Shown here piece after piece: positions 40,897 through 44,520 of a stretch of DNA of 64,000 bases. Each line of letters opens with the position of its first letter. The stretch's first letter is position 1. The stretch is from Streptomyces sp. NBC_00490. Lineage in GTDB: Bacteria; Actinomycetota; Actinomycetes; Streptomycetales; Streptomycetaceae. Under the pieces are notes generated by a model, which saw nothing but the letters and a program-made list of their open reading frames with translations, did not search any database and was not told the DNA's origin. The translations under genes were made by a program, and so were the position numbers. The stretch covers positions 7,812,001 to 7,876,000 of the forward strand of contig NZ_CP107869.1 of the NCBI RefSeq assembly GCF_036013645.1, read 5' to 3'.

Positions 40897-40955
40897 CGGG
40901 CGGGCGGGGGCATAACGTGAGGAGTCGAACGCCTGAGCCGGGAGGAGATTTACGG

Positions 40956-42275
40956 ATGGGCAGCCGCACCGCACTGGTCGAAGATCTGATGGAGCGATTC
41001 CCGCACGTACCGCGGGAAGCCGTCTTCAAGGAGGATCTGCTGCGCGGCGGGGTGGCCTTCGATCCGTCCGCGCTCAGCGACAACGAGGGTGGAGAGGTCA
41101 AGCCGAAGTCGTACTTCATCTTCTCCTTCGACCACGGCACCCTGCCCGAACTCGGCGAGGCCGCGCTGCGGCGGCCACCGGAGGAGATCATCCTCACCGG
41201 CGGTCCGTACGACCTGCGCCGCACCGTCGTCTCCGTGCGCGTGAACCCGTCGTCGCCGTACCGCGTCGCCGCCGACGAGGAGGGCGTGCTCGGCCTCTAC
41301 CTCGACGGCAAGCGCATCGCCGACGTCGGTGTGCCGCCGATGCCGGAGTACTACAAGCACAAGCTCTCCAACGGGAAGTCCGTCATGGAGGTCGCCCCCA
41401 CCATCCAGTGGGGCTACCTCATCTACCTGACCGTCTTCCGGGTCTGCCAGTACTTCGGCGCCAAGGAGGAGTGCCAGTACTGCGACATCAACCACAACTG
41501 GCGCCAGCACAAGGCCGCCGGCCGCCCGTACACCGGCGTCAAGGACGTCGAGGAGGTCCTCGAGGCCCTGGAGATCATCGACCGGTACGACACCGCGAAG
41601 ACCTCCACCGCCTACACCCTCACCGGCGGCGCGATCACCAAGACGGTGGCCGGACGCGACGAGGCCGACTTCTACGGCCACTACGCCAAGGCCATCGAGG
41701 AGCGCTTCCCGGGCCGCTGGATCGGCAAGGTCGTCGCCCAGGCGCTGCCGCGCGACGACGTGCAGCGCTTCAAGGACTACGGCGTGCAGATCTACCACCC
41801 CAACTACGAGGTGTGGGACGAGTACCTCTTCAAGCTCCACTGCCCCGGCAAGGAGCGCTACGTCGGCCGCGACGAGTGGCACAAGCGGATCCTGGAGTCG
41901 GCGGAGATCTTCGGCGCGCGCAATGTGATCCCCAACTTCGTGGCGGGCGTGGAGATGGCCGAGCCCTTCGGCTTCAAGACCGTCGACGAGGCCATCGCGT
42001 CCACCACCGAGGGGCTGCGCTTCTTCATGTCGCAGGGCATCACGCCCCGCTTCACCACCTGGTGCCCCGAGCCGACCACCCCGCTCGGCAAGGCCAATCC
42101 GCAGGGCGCCCCGCTGGAGTACCACATCCGGCTGCTGCAGGCCTATCGCCAGACGATGGAGGACTTCGGTCTCTCCTCGCCCCCCGGATACGGTGAGCCC
42201 GGGCCCGGCCGCGCCGTCTTCTCCGTGAGCTCCTTCATGGACAGCCTCCCGGCACAGGAACCCGCCGAGGTGTAG
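40956..42275 (+). CDS. Radical SAM protein with CX8CX2C cluster motif
   Basis: A 439-residue enzyme predicted to bind a [4Fe-4S] cluster and S-adenosylmethionine. The three cysteines lie in VCQYFGAKEECQYCDINHNW, a C-x8-C-x2-C spacing instead of the usual C-x3-C-x2-C. The SAM-binding LTGGAIT after strand 2 and later barrel strands (YGVQIYHPNYEVWDEYLFK, VIPNFVAGVEMAEPFG) are conserved, so the fold seems intact. Cys-containing ITPRFTTWCPEPTTPLG near residue 375 may be catalytic. The N-terminal 150 residues form an extra domain rich in beta-strands (YLDGKRIADVGVPPMPEYY). GGGAGGAG precedes the ATG at 40956, and a T-tailed hairpin follows. Substrate and reaction are unknown. Confidence 0.85.
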   Translation: MGSRTALVEDLMERFPHVPREAVFKEDLLRGGVAFDPSALSDNEGGEVKPKSYFIFSFDHGTLPELGEAALRRPPEEIILTGGPYDLRRTVVSVRVNPSSPYRVAADEEGVLGLYLDGKRIADVGVPPMPEYYKHKLSNGKSVMEVAPTIQWGYLIYLTVFRVCQYFGAKEECQYCDINHNWRQHKAAGRPYTGVKDVEEVLEALEIIDRYDTAKTSTAYTLTGGAITKTVAGRDEADFYGHYAKAIEERFPGRWIGKVVAQALPRDDVQRFKDYGVQIYHPNYEVWDEYLFKLHCPGKERYVGRDEWHKRILESAEIFGARNVIPNFVAGVEMAEPFGFKTVDEAIASTTEGLRFFMSQGITPRFTTWCPEPTTPLGKANPQGAPLEYHIRLLQAYRQTMEDFGLSSPPGYGEPGPGRAVFSVSSFMDSLPAQEPAEV

Positions 42276-42331: not shown

Positions 42332-42527
42332 CTGCGTATGTCTCCAGGAGTAACAGACGCAACAGCGGCAACGAGGTGTGGGCGGGCTCGAACTCCTGGT
42401 AACCGGATTTGAATGGTGAGCTTGTCAGTTGTGTGGAAGCCGTGAAAAGCTCGTGCACTGCCGCGAGGTTCCCCACAACTCCGTTGCCAATAAGGTGAGT
42501 TGACCTCGCTTTCGATGCAGGAGTCCG

Positions 42528-43997
42528 ATGCCCGACCTGCCGACCCCCCAGGACGCCGCCGAGGCCGTGCTGTTCACCGAGTGCTGGGACGCCGTACTCT
42601 CCTACGCCGACCTCTGCACGGCCGGCTCCACCGCGGCCACCCAGCTGGCCACGGAGGCGTTCGCCCTCGGCATGCGCGAGGCCCGCACCGACGGCGGCGG
42701 CACCGCCAAGGGCGTGGGCCGCCGTGCGCCCCGGCTGCCCGTGATACCCCTGCTGCTGACGGCCGTACGCACCACCGCCGCCGCCTGGGAGACCGCCGGC
42801 CAGGGCCACCGGCTCGATCCCGACCTGCGTCTGTGGCTCAACTCGGACAAGGCCGCACGCTACACCGGCCCGCCGTTGCAGCGCCCGCTCGCCCTGCGCG
42901 GCCTGCGCGACATGCAGGAACACGACGCGGATCTGCTGTGGCTGGCCGAGGTGGAGGCGCTGCCGCTGTCCGTGGTGGCCCGCAGGCTCGGTCTGGACCC
43001 GGCCCATCTGCCGGAGGAACTCGCGCAGGTGCGCGGCCTGTTCCGGGACCGCAGTCACCGCAACCACCTCGACAGCCCGATGGCCCCGCAGTGCCGCAGC
43101 TACGCCCGCCTCCTCGACGCGGTCACCCGCGCGAGCACCGCTGACACCCCGGCGGACCTCTCCCGGCACCTCGCCACCTGTGTGCAGTGCGCCGAGGCCG
43201 CCGCCTGTCTGCGGCTGCACGGCGGCGGACTGCCCGGGGCGCTCGCGGGCGGAGTGATCGGCTGGGGCGGCCTCGCCTACCTGGAGCGCAGACGCCGGGC
43301 CGCGGAGGTGCGGCTGGGCGCCGGACGCCCGGAGACGGCCGACGCCGGTCCGCCGAACCCCGGCGCCCACAAGGCGCGTGTCGTGCGCAGCGGACTGCTC
43401 GTCACCGCCGTCCTGGTCTCACTGCTGGCCCTCGCCGTCTCGATGATGCCGGCGGGCGGCTCCATGGACGACAAAGCTTCGCTGCCCACCGACCGCCAGC
43501 CGGTGGCCGATCCCGGCGCCACCGTGCCCTCGCCGTCCGCGACCTCCGGGCCGGCGGCCTCGCCCACACCGTCCGCGGCCGGCAGCACCACCGCGAAGAA
43601 GAACCCCGGCCCCGAACCCCAGGGCACCACCTCCTCCGCCGCCCGCGACGACGAGAAGCCGAGCCCCGCCACGAGTGCGGCGGCCACCTGTGAGGTCCGG
43701 TACGAGCTGGTGAACCAGTGGCCCGACGGCTTCCAGGCCACCGTCACCGTGACCACCGACGAGGCCCTCGACGACTGGCGCGTCGCCTGGTCCTTCAAGG
43801 ACGGCCAGAAGGTCGGCCAGATGTGGGACGCGAGCTTCGCCCAGGACGGCTCCCGTGTCACCGCGAGCGCCGCGGACTACAACAGGACCGTGCGCGCGGG
43901 CGCCGACCTCGCCTTCGGCTTCCTCGCCTCCTGGCAGGGCACGAACTCCCCGGCGTACGCCTTCACGTTGAACGGGCACACCTGCTCGAAGGCCTGA
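42528..43997 (+). CDS. Sigma-like/anti-sigma-like transmembrane protein with external CBM2
   Basis: A 489-residue protein that appears to combine parts of a signalling pathway. Residues 10-60 and 120-190 resemble sigma-factor regions 2 and 4 (DAAEAVLFTECWDAVLSYAD; LPLSVVARRLGLDPAHLPEE as helix-turn-helix). H214-LAT-C218-VQ-C221 is the HxxxCxxC zinc motif of anti-sigma factors. One helix (289-307, GLLVTAVLVSLLALAVSMM) crosses the membrane. Residues 310-387 are a Pro/Ser/Thr linker. Residues 388-486 are a family 2 carbohydrate-binding module with the Cys388-Cys486 pair and aromatic residues in QWPDGF, QMWDASF and ASWQGTN. The likely topology puts the CBM outside and the sigma-like part inside, so it could sense cellulose or chitin. 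Convergent with the RsbW-like kinase, with a 35-base overlap. Sigma activity is inferred and may be lost. Confidence 0.82.
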   Translation: MPDLPTPQDAAEAVLFTECWDAVLSYADLCTAGSTAATQLATEAFALGMREARTDGGGTAKGVGRRAPRLPVIPLLLTAVRTTAAAWETAGQGHRLDPDLRLWLNSDKAARYTGPPLQRPLALRGLRDMQEHDADLLWLAEVEALPLSVVARRLGLDPAHLPEELAQVRGLFRDRSHRNHLDSPMAPQCRSYARLLDAVTRASTADTPADLSRHLATCVQCAEAAACLRLHGGGLPGALAGGVIGWGGLAYLERRRRAAEVRLGAGRPETADAGPPNPGAHKARVVRSGLLVTAVLVSLLALAVSMMPAGGSMDDKASLPTDRQPVADPGATVPSPSATSGPAASPTPSAAGSTTAKKNPGPEPQGTTSSAARDDEKPSPATSAAATCEVRYELVNQWPDGFQATVTVTTDEALDDWRVAWSFKDGQKVGQMWDASFAQDGSRVTASAADYNRTVRAGADLAFGFLASWQGTNSPAYAFTLNGHTCSKA

Positions 43998-44520
43998 CGG
44001 CATCCGTCGGACGCAGCAGCACCGGCACCGTGGCCCGGTCGGGCAGGCACCACCTCGGCGCGGACGTCCACGCGGGGCCCGTCCTGCCGGCCGCCGCGTC
44101 CGGAGCGGCGGCCTCCAGCTCGAACCACACCTCGGTGCCGACGCTGTCCTCGACGTGCCCGCTGCCCCACCGGTCGGCGAGCGCGTCGACCAGCAGCAGG
44201 CCGCGCCCGTTCTCGCTGTCCGCGTCGGAGCCCTCGCCGTGCGTCCCGGGCAGGCCCGGCCCCTCGTCCGCGACCGTGCAGCGCAGCCGGCCGGCCGTGA
44301 GGGAGAGGGTGAGCCGATAGCGGCCCCGGGCGTGCACGACCGCGTTGGTGGCGAGTTCGCTGACCAGCAGTTCGGCGGTCTCCGCCTGGTCCTGGAGCCC
44401 GTACTCGGCCAGCCACGTCCGCACGGCGGCCCTGGCGAGGCGGACCGAGGACCGTCCGGGCCCCAGGATCGTCGTACAGCCACCGCCCAGGGACAGACCG
44501 GGCGGACGGACGTCGGGCAT
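43963..44520 (-). CDS. RsbW-like anti-sigma kinase (HATPase)
   Basis: A 185-residue cytoplasmic protein with a GHKL/HATPase domain in residues 15-130. The N-box is ELLVSELATNAVVHARGRY, the G1 box VADEGPGLPG, and the G2 box ENGRGLLLVDAL. Proteins of this type bind ATP and either hold sigma factors or phosphorylate anti-anti-sigma factors; Streptomyces have dozens. The C-terminal 50 residues are unlike the family and overlap the CBM2 protein gene by 35 bases, so the frame probably extends past the usual end. Its partner is not identifiable. Its place between the sigma-like CBM2 protein and the MEDS-domain gene is suggestive only. Confidence 0.85.
   Translation of the reverse strand: MPDVRPPGLSLGGGCTTILGPGRSSVRLARAAVRTWLAEYGLQDQAETAELLVSELATNAVVHARGRYRLTLSLTAGRLRCTVADEGPGLPGTHGEGSDADSENGRGLLLVDALADRWGSGHVEDSVGTEVWFELEAAAPDAAAGRTGPAWTSAPRWCLPDRATVPVLLRPTDAVRPSSRCARST

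Follow-up and report, generated by a model that had tools for sequence, protein, structure and literature searches.

Actinobacterial sensing of insoluble polymers without uptake is poorly understood; fused membrane proteins of the extracytoplasmic function (ECF) group ECF52 have been proposed as direct sensors, and experimental work on them is thin. A gene in the 64,000-nucleotide stretch of Streptomyces sp. NBC_00490 analyzed here (the window, from a genome of 10.8 Mb in two contigs) raises the question of whether a protein with this body plan must act as a sigma factor at all. A preliminary description had read its product as one chain joining sigma-like, anti-sigma-like and cellulose-binding (CBM2) parts across the membrane and had proposed a direct route from polysaccharide contact to transcription. 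The architecture of the protein, its descent, the loss of its sigma signature residues and the purifying selection acting on it were all computed directly. It probably signals otherwise than as a sigma factor, or not at all, and we see about an even chance that it is a membrane-anchored pseudo-sigma receptor, gated by its CBM2 domain, that switches protein partners inside the cell. The features discussed are as follows.

42528..43997, + strand: whole gene (pseudo-sigma part, zinc anti-sigma-like domain, transmembrane helix, linker, CBM2); open reading frame (ORF) of 489 amino acids
42546..42812, + strand: domain resembling sigma region 2, residues 7-95; without the region 2.2 Asp and the basic residues of region 2.4
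42813..42878, + strand: sigma2-sigma4 connector, residues 96-117; invariant at 13 of 22 positions, a share matched by the juxtamembrane stretch
42879..43073, + strand: helix-turn-helix resembling sigma region 4, residues 118-182; recognition helix without net positive charge
43074..43217, + strand: zinc anti-sigma-like (ZAS) domain, residues 183-230; putative ligands C189, H214, C218, C221
43218..43313, + strand: juxtamembrane stretch with GWGG..Y..RRRR, residues 231-262; conserved, 19 of 32 positions invariant
43380..43451, + strand: single transmembrane helix by Kyte-Doolittle, residues about 285-308
43458..43688, + strand: extracytoplasmic Pro/Ser/Thr linker, residues 311-387; fast evolving, omega 0.38-0.95
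43689..43985, + strand: CBM2, residues 388-486; W398, W417, W433 and Y451 invariant in 30/30 orthologue rows
42421..42447, + strand: conserved upstream block, 81-107 bp before the ATG; 14 neighboring columns identical in 30/30 aligned sequences

Architecture and fold of the fused protein

The ORF, Pfam, the zinc ligands, the transmembrane segment and the alignments all bear out the joining of the three parts in one chain. CBM_2 (PF00553) matches residues 388 to 486 over the whole profile (E = 1.3e-27; 96.5 bits against a cut-off of 24), with the paired cysteines and aromatic positions of a complete CBM2. The domain is present in all 30 rows of the orthologue alignment (A3), where C388 and C486, the pair named in the preliminary description, are invariant; W398, W433 and Y451 are presumably its binding face. 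In the Pfam scan of the 489-residue protein, zf-HC2 was not reported and the only match besides CBM_2 was a chance-level transmembrane model (E = 0.47), while NCBIfam matched solely the CBM-bearing end of an exoglucanase model. According to passages of PMC7406223, Hx3Cx2C is the signature of the ZAS domain, and class I anti-sigma domains of this kind bind sigma2 and sigma4. The window protein carries it C-terminal to the sigma-like part as H214-x3-C218-x2-C221, confirming the motif described earlier, and C189 is likely the fourth zinc ligand, judging from its conservation: all four putative ligands are invariant in 41/41 rows of a wider alignment (A4) and in 30/30 rows of A3. Near this domain, residue 176 (43053-43055) is Ser in the window protein and Cys in 28 of the 30 orthologue rows. 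The single membrane helix also held up, as one hydrophobic stretch at residues about 283 to 313 (19-residue Kyte-Doolittle windows above 1.6 start at 283-295); it is flanked by Lys/Arg on the N-terminal side and Asp on the C-terminal side, charges that would place the N terminus in the cytoplasm. The outer linker is rich in Pro, Ser and Thr, as had been noted, and variable, with 2 of its 77 positions invariant in A3.

The preliminary description had treated the one-chain fusion as a departure from known systems, but the combination of sigma factor, anti-sigma factor and carbohydrate binder is already known: passages of PMC5826349 describe the ECF52 protein SCO4117 as having sigma, zinc finger, transmembrane segment, Pro-rich linker and carbohydrate-binding module in one chain. 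ECF53 and ECF48 are groups related to ECF52. The window protein shows the ECF52 architecture by domain layout rather than by the published ECF group models. The same genome encodes a second protein of this type, L046, with Sigma70_r2 (2.3e-12), Sigma70_r4_2, zf-HC2 and NPCBM (Sigma70_r4_2 and zf-HC2 under curated Pfam cut-offs); it exceeds the NCBIfam sigma70-ECF cut-off, and a TetR gene lies directly upstream. SCO4117 itself is described in part of PMC5826349 as lying downstream of atrA and ending in smart00776. Because its layout equals that published for SCO4117, we take L046 to be the putative SCO4117/ECF52 orthologue. The window protein resembles ECF52 in its one-chain order of sigma2-sigma4, ZAS, transmembrane segment, Pro-rich linker and outer carbohydrate-binding domain and is homologous to L046 over the whole cytoplasmic unit, but its sigma signature residues are lost, its first sigma2 helix is missing, and CBM2 replaces NPCBM. 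Two other systems offer partial parallels. Clostridial SigI/RsgI also has outer carbohydrate-binding modules on membrane regulators, an analogy that draws on general knowledge of the RsgI layout rather than on sequence comparison, but in that system the sigma and anti-sigma factors are two distinct proteins. IutY (ECF243) of Pseudomonas putida, as described in part of PMC8999054, fuses sigma and anti-sigma in one membrane protein; it differs in responding to a siderophore, in releasing an active sigma factor through Prc and RseP and in having no CBM.

Family models do not recognize sigma regions 2 and 4 in the window protein: neither Pfam nor NCBIfam gave a sigma match even at an E value of 10, whereas L046 does match sigma models in the same libraries. 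Sigma70_r4_2 appeared weakly in 4 of the 30 A3 rows (best 0.019), and the unrelated MarR_2 equally often (4/30, best 0.0012); a MarR-type helix-turn-helix was set aside, as fold and profile indicate sigma region 4. AlphaFold2 modeled residues 1-262 with a pLDDT of 91.0 and a pTM of 0.88, and Foldseek ranks 1 to 25 for that model are sigma factors, sigma/anti-sigma complexes or PhyR, at weak E values (best 0.018, none at 0.001), so that the sigma2/sigma4-shaped module (residues 1-182) is sigma-like in predicted structure and the non-sigma fold named as a refutation in the preliminary description did not materialize. A 12-row profile (A2), comprising the window protein, seven orthologues and four same-genome paralogues (L002, L003, L004 and L008), matches L046 at E = 1.1e-31. 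This transitive match, the intermediates and the tree described below exclude coincidence as the source of the sigma resemblance in residues 1-200. Searched against PDB sequences, the N-terminal profile gave three matches (E = 0.34-0.64), the top one to a designed helical bundle and two to sigma region 4, which are too weak to be kept as stand-alone evidence. The window sigma2 lacks an equivalent of the helix that opens the ECF52-type model (L046 model residues 11-19).

Loss of sigma signature residues under purifying selection

ECF factors use regions 2.2, 2.4 and 4.2 to bind the beta' clamp and the promoter -10 and -35 elements. We compared these regions in a single alignment of 30 orthologue rows (window included), 8 divergent CBM2 proteins, 14 relatives ending in a ricin domain, two further ricin proteins (L174 and L177), L046, another same-genome relative (L047) and 23 ECF factors from the same genome. 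The region 2.2 Asp was found in 0/30 orthologues, 0/8 divergent CBM2 rows and 0/14 ricin rows, compared with 2/2 for L174/L177, 1/1 each for L046 and L047, and 21/23 ECF factors; the window protein has Gln at this site. Mean net charge was -1.43 (-3 to 1) in orthologues versus +2.52 (-1 to 5) in ECF factors for region 2.4, and -1.20 (-3 to 0) versus +3.48 (2 to 5) for the region 4.2 recognition helix. Against a profile of the 23 ECF factors, left-out ECF factors scored 119-163 bits (8 tested), L174/L177 80-97, L046 76 and L047 71, while ricin rows scored 6-35, CBM2 rows 2-25 and the window protein 6.1. The window protein therefore has neither the acidic region 2.2 residue nor the net positive regions 2.4 and 4.2 of a functional ECF factor, and "sigma-like," applied to residues 1-200 in the preliminary description, is correct for fold and descent and incorrect for functional surfaces.

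The degenerate part is nevertheless maintained. Computed against eight related loci, with few changes to go on in the two closest pairs, omega was 0.00-0.35 for sigma2, 0.04-0.40 for sigma4, 0.17-0.38 for ZAS and 0.38-0.95 for the outer linker, and, over seven pairs each, 0.00-0.22 for the connector (one pair undefined) and 0.11-0.75 for CBM2. Values well below 1 in the cytoplasmic parts rule out a decaying pseudogene. The sigma half has thus degenerated under continued purifying selection, as expected of a repurposed domain, judging from these alignments. Across the 30 orthologue rows, invariant positions make up 59% of the connector, 59% of the juxtamembrane stretch, 52% of ZAS, 40% of sigma4, 39% of sigma2, 19% of CBM2 and 3% of the outer linker. 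Among the seven regions, the connector ranked lowest in omega for 3 of the 7 defined pairs and shared the lowest value in a fourth. Because the connector is usually variable in ECF factors and is constant here, its conservation suggests a new interface in the window clade.

These results bear on whether the protein is a working membrane sigma factor of the ECF52 kind. In the published proposal, given in passages of PMC5826349 and PMC8999054, sugar binding leads to proteolysis or conformational change and so to sigma release; applied to the window protein, polysaccharide would trigger regulated proteolysis or opening, and the sigma part would leave ZAS and direct transcription. We regard this as unlikely. 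It fits the architecture shared with, and the homology to, the SCO4117-type L046, as well as the retained AlphaFold2 and Foldseek fold, and part of PMC5826349 reports that a strain with the SCO4117 sigma domain alone sporulated later than the wild type and faster than the knockout, with its own gene up 1.3-fold. It is harder to reconcile with an Asp missing in 30/30 orthologues, regions 2.4 and 4.2 that are negative on average, the score of 6 bits, the lack of any Pfam or NCBIfam sigma match and of the first sigma2 helix, and a single-copy upstream block that offers no hint of an autoregulated regulon motif. The suggestion that the sigma part might be cut free thus repeats an existing ECF52 proposal and meets altered polymerase and promoter positions in this clade. 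The direct route from polysaccharide to transcription is poorly supported, because substitutions throughout the clade affect the beta' clamp, -10 and -35 positions of a module that purifying selection still maintains.

Several observations weigh against a pseudo-sigma receptor. The charge ranges of orthologues and ECF factors do not overlap in region 4.2 but do in region 2.4, where at least one ECF factor stands at -1, and 2 of the 23 ECF factors themselves lack the region 2.2 Asp (one N, one E). Glu occupies that site in 5/30 orthologues and 1/8 divergent CBM2 rows. Among the ricin proteins, one row reaches 34.6 bits against the ECF profile, region 4.2 charge rises to +5, and L173 matches Sigma70_r4_2 at 0.0031, as does the CBM2 row L167 at 0.0015. 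Given the Glu rows, the overlapping charges and the L173 and L167 matches, loss of the sigma signature may be incomplete in parts of the clade, and the charge loss is itself an argument from sequence. Nor was a partner gene identified: the one neighbor kept at 64/64 loci has no Pfam match and is not a recognizable regulator.

Descent and probable exchange of the outer domain

The four same-genome paralogues of the N-terminal half (L002, L003, L004 and L008) end in Ricin_B_lectin (E = 6e-15 to 8e-17) rather than CBM2. Profile A2 adds two further same-genome relatives, L046 and L047 (1.1e-15), and three more places at 2e-4 or weaker. L047 (1423-3285, + strand) has ECF and zf-HC2 parts, and its C-terminal half is largely a Pro-rich extension without a recognized end domain. 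In each of the six relatives a strongly hydrophobic stretch separates the cytoplasmic from the outer part, so the genome encodes seven related membrane proteins with three recognized outer domains (CBM2, ricin and NPCBM) and one Pro-rich tail.

In a midpoint-rooted tree of 60 rows, L046 and L047 fall on the side of the 23 ECF factors (93/82). The 14 ricin rows and all 19 CBM2 rows form a 33-row clade (99/97), adjoined by L174 and L177, which carry ricin domains, retain matches to sigma regions 2 and 4 and are possible active lectin-controlled membrane sigma factors. Pfam confirmed the outer domain of every divergent CBM2 row (8) and every ricin row (14). Since the CBM2 rows form one group (100/100), the outer domain probably switched from ricin to CBM2 once, as far as a midpoint-rooted tree can tell. 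One orthologue, L167 (1190-1861, - strand), lacks the whole ZAS segment, for which reason it was excluded from the 41-row A4, and keeps the sigma-like, GWGG and CBM2 parts. What is unusual here is a well-supported clade whose sigma half is degenerate yet selected; no description of such a degenerate, lectin-swapped clade was found in the open-licence literature.

Some match was found in 94/101 genomes of the genus and a close orthologue (E < 1e-85) in 32/101, compared with an A2 match at 1e-10 in 193/197 genomes of the order; in this partial spread the window orthologues differ from ECF52, to which we infer the weak single matches across the order belong. By hand count in the 197-genome sample, all 76 matches stronger than the first ricin row, among the matches listed, are in Streptomyces. 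Of 16 genomes outside the genus, 13 match A2, at just 1.6e-17 to 8.1e-31, and strong matches to the window clade occur in Streptomyces alone in the samples searched. The closest named match of the N-terminal region is from Streptomyces canus V4I20 (99% identity), which makes the source organism very probably a close relative of S. canus.

Candidate inputs and outputs, and the genomic neighborhood

For the pseudo-sigma receptor, an ancestral ECF52-like fused sigma/anti-sigma protein would have duplicated in Streptomyces, and one descendant clade would have kept the sigma2/sigma4 fold and the ZAS partner domain while losing the residues that contact promoter and polymerase; in the window lineage the outer lectin would have become CBM2 instead of a ricin domain. 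The polysaccharide ligand, the lost transcription activity and the partner switch are what we infer. The most likely input would be CBM2 engaging a crystalline polysaccharide such as cellulose, or else cleavage of the chain. It would change the packing of the cytoplasmic sigma-like/ZAS unit, which would then bind or release a partner, either an anti-sigma factor, as in PhyR/NepR, or a free ECF factor. Input would thus be as in the ECF52 proposal and output different, from a non-transcribing unit. The precedent is PhyR, whose ECF-like domain, as passages of PMC8103513 describe it, has degenerate promoter- and polymerase-binding regions and titrates an anti-sigma factor. The window protein resembles it in having an ECF-like fold with degenerate contact regions, and PhyR entries are among the structural matches of its model; PhyR differs in being a response regulator of alphaproteobacteria, another phylum, and no PhyR-type receiver domain is among the Pfam matches of the window protein. 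More tentatively, and with some doubt, the whole clade could be a set of membrane-spanning sigma mimics that evolved in Streptomyces, each with a degenerate sigma/anti-sigma module that titrates an internal regulator under the control of an interchangeable outer lectin (ricin or CBM2).

The constancy of the ZAS domain could also mean that the protein is an anti-sigma receptor acting in trans, with the sigma-like part a scaffold and ZAS capturing a separate ECF factor, RsgI-like, until polysaccharide binding releases it. The four zinc-type ligands invariant in 41/41 rows, a ZAS omega of 0.17-0.38 and the sigma2 and sigma4 binding of class I anti-sigma domains (PMC7406223, in part) agree with this. 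We nonetheless find it distinctly improbable: the compact model (pTM 0.88) suggests that the ZAS face is filled by the protein's own sigma-like domains, none of the 11 traced neighbors in the window locus is an ECF gene, and L167 has lost ZAS while keeping the rest.

Least probable of the readings considered is a surface adhesin that fixes the mycelium to cellulose, its cytoplasmic part a structural anchor without signaling. The invariant CBM2 aromatic positions would suit it, as would the number of other CBM2 domains per genome (median 10 in the 32 genomes with a close orthologue versus 3 in the 69 without; Mann-Whitney p = 1.5e-8; t = 4.8 after genome size; 9 versus 3, t = 3.1, when five divergent carriers are added) and the reverse trend for CBM_5_12 (1 versus 3), all of these associations being uncorrected for genome kinship. 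The folded cytoplasmic parts, unlike a passive anchor, are more conserved than CBM2 (39-59% versus 19% invariant; CBM2 omega up to 0.75).

The family of lectin-controlled sigma mimics, if confirmed, would place sigma mimicry outside PhyR and, to our knowledge for the first time, wire it directly to a surface polysaccharide receptor. The ECF52 body plan has been kept under selection after loss of the sigma signature, so that either the divergence that membrane sigma factors can tolerate is much greater than assumed or the plan signals protein to protein. It may mislead to call these genes sigma factors, or to see in them nothing more than cellulose-binding proteins, the annotation given to a plasmid homologue with 39% identity.

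The gene directly upstream (40953-42275) is the same at all 64 loci with full flanks (mean identity 95%); it has no Pfam match at 1e-3 and looks radical-SAM-like by eye. The three genes directly downstream (HATPase, MEDS and LuxR) occur at 2, 4 and 2 of these loci, and a functional link to them was dropped for that reason. Other neighbors on both sides occur at 27 to 59 loci. The three look inserted, since more distant downstream genes are retained at 46 and 36 of the 64 loci, mostly in displaced positions. The HATPase_c_2 gene (43963-44520, - strand) converges on the CBM2 gene, overlapping its last 35 bp, and is probably a recent neighbor, being present at 2/64 loci. Conservation of the fusion and its surroundings, which the preliminary description had proposed to check, thus extends to CBM2 in 30/30 orthologues and to the upstream gene but not to the three genes directly downstream. 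The upstream block, aligned in the first 30 of 81 collected sequences, starts CTTGTCAGTTGTG, followed by a CGTGAAA stretch. It occurs once in the genome within 3 mismatches, as does the reversed control pattern; an autoregulated promoter motif of a regulon was rejected on this count, and the block is a putative gene-specific control element.
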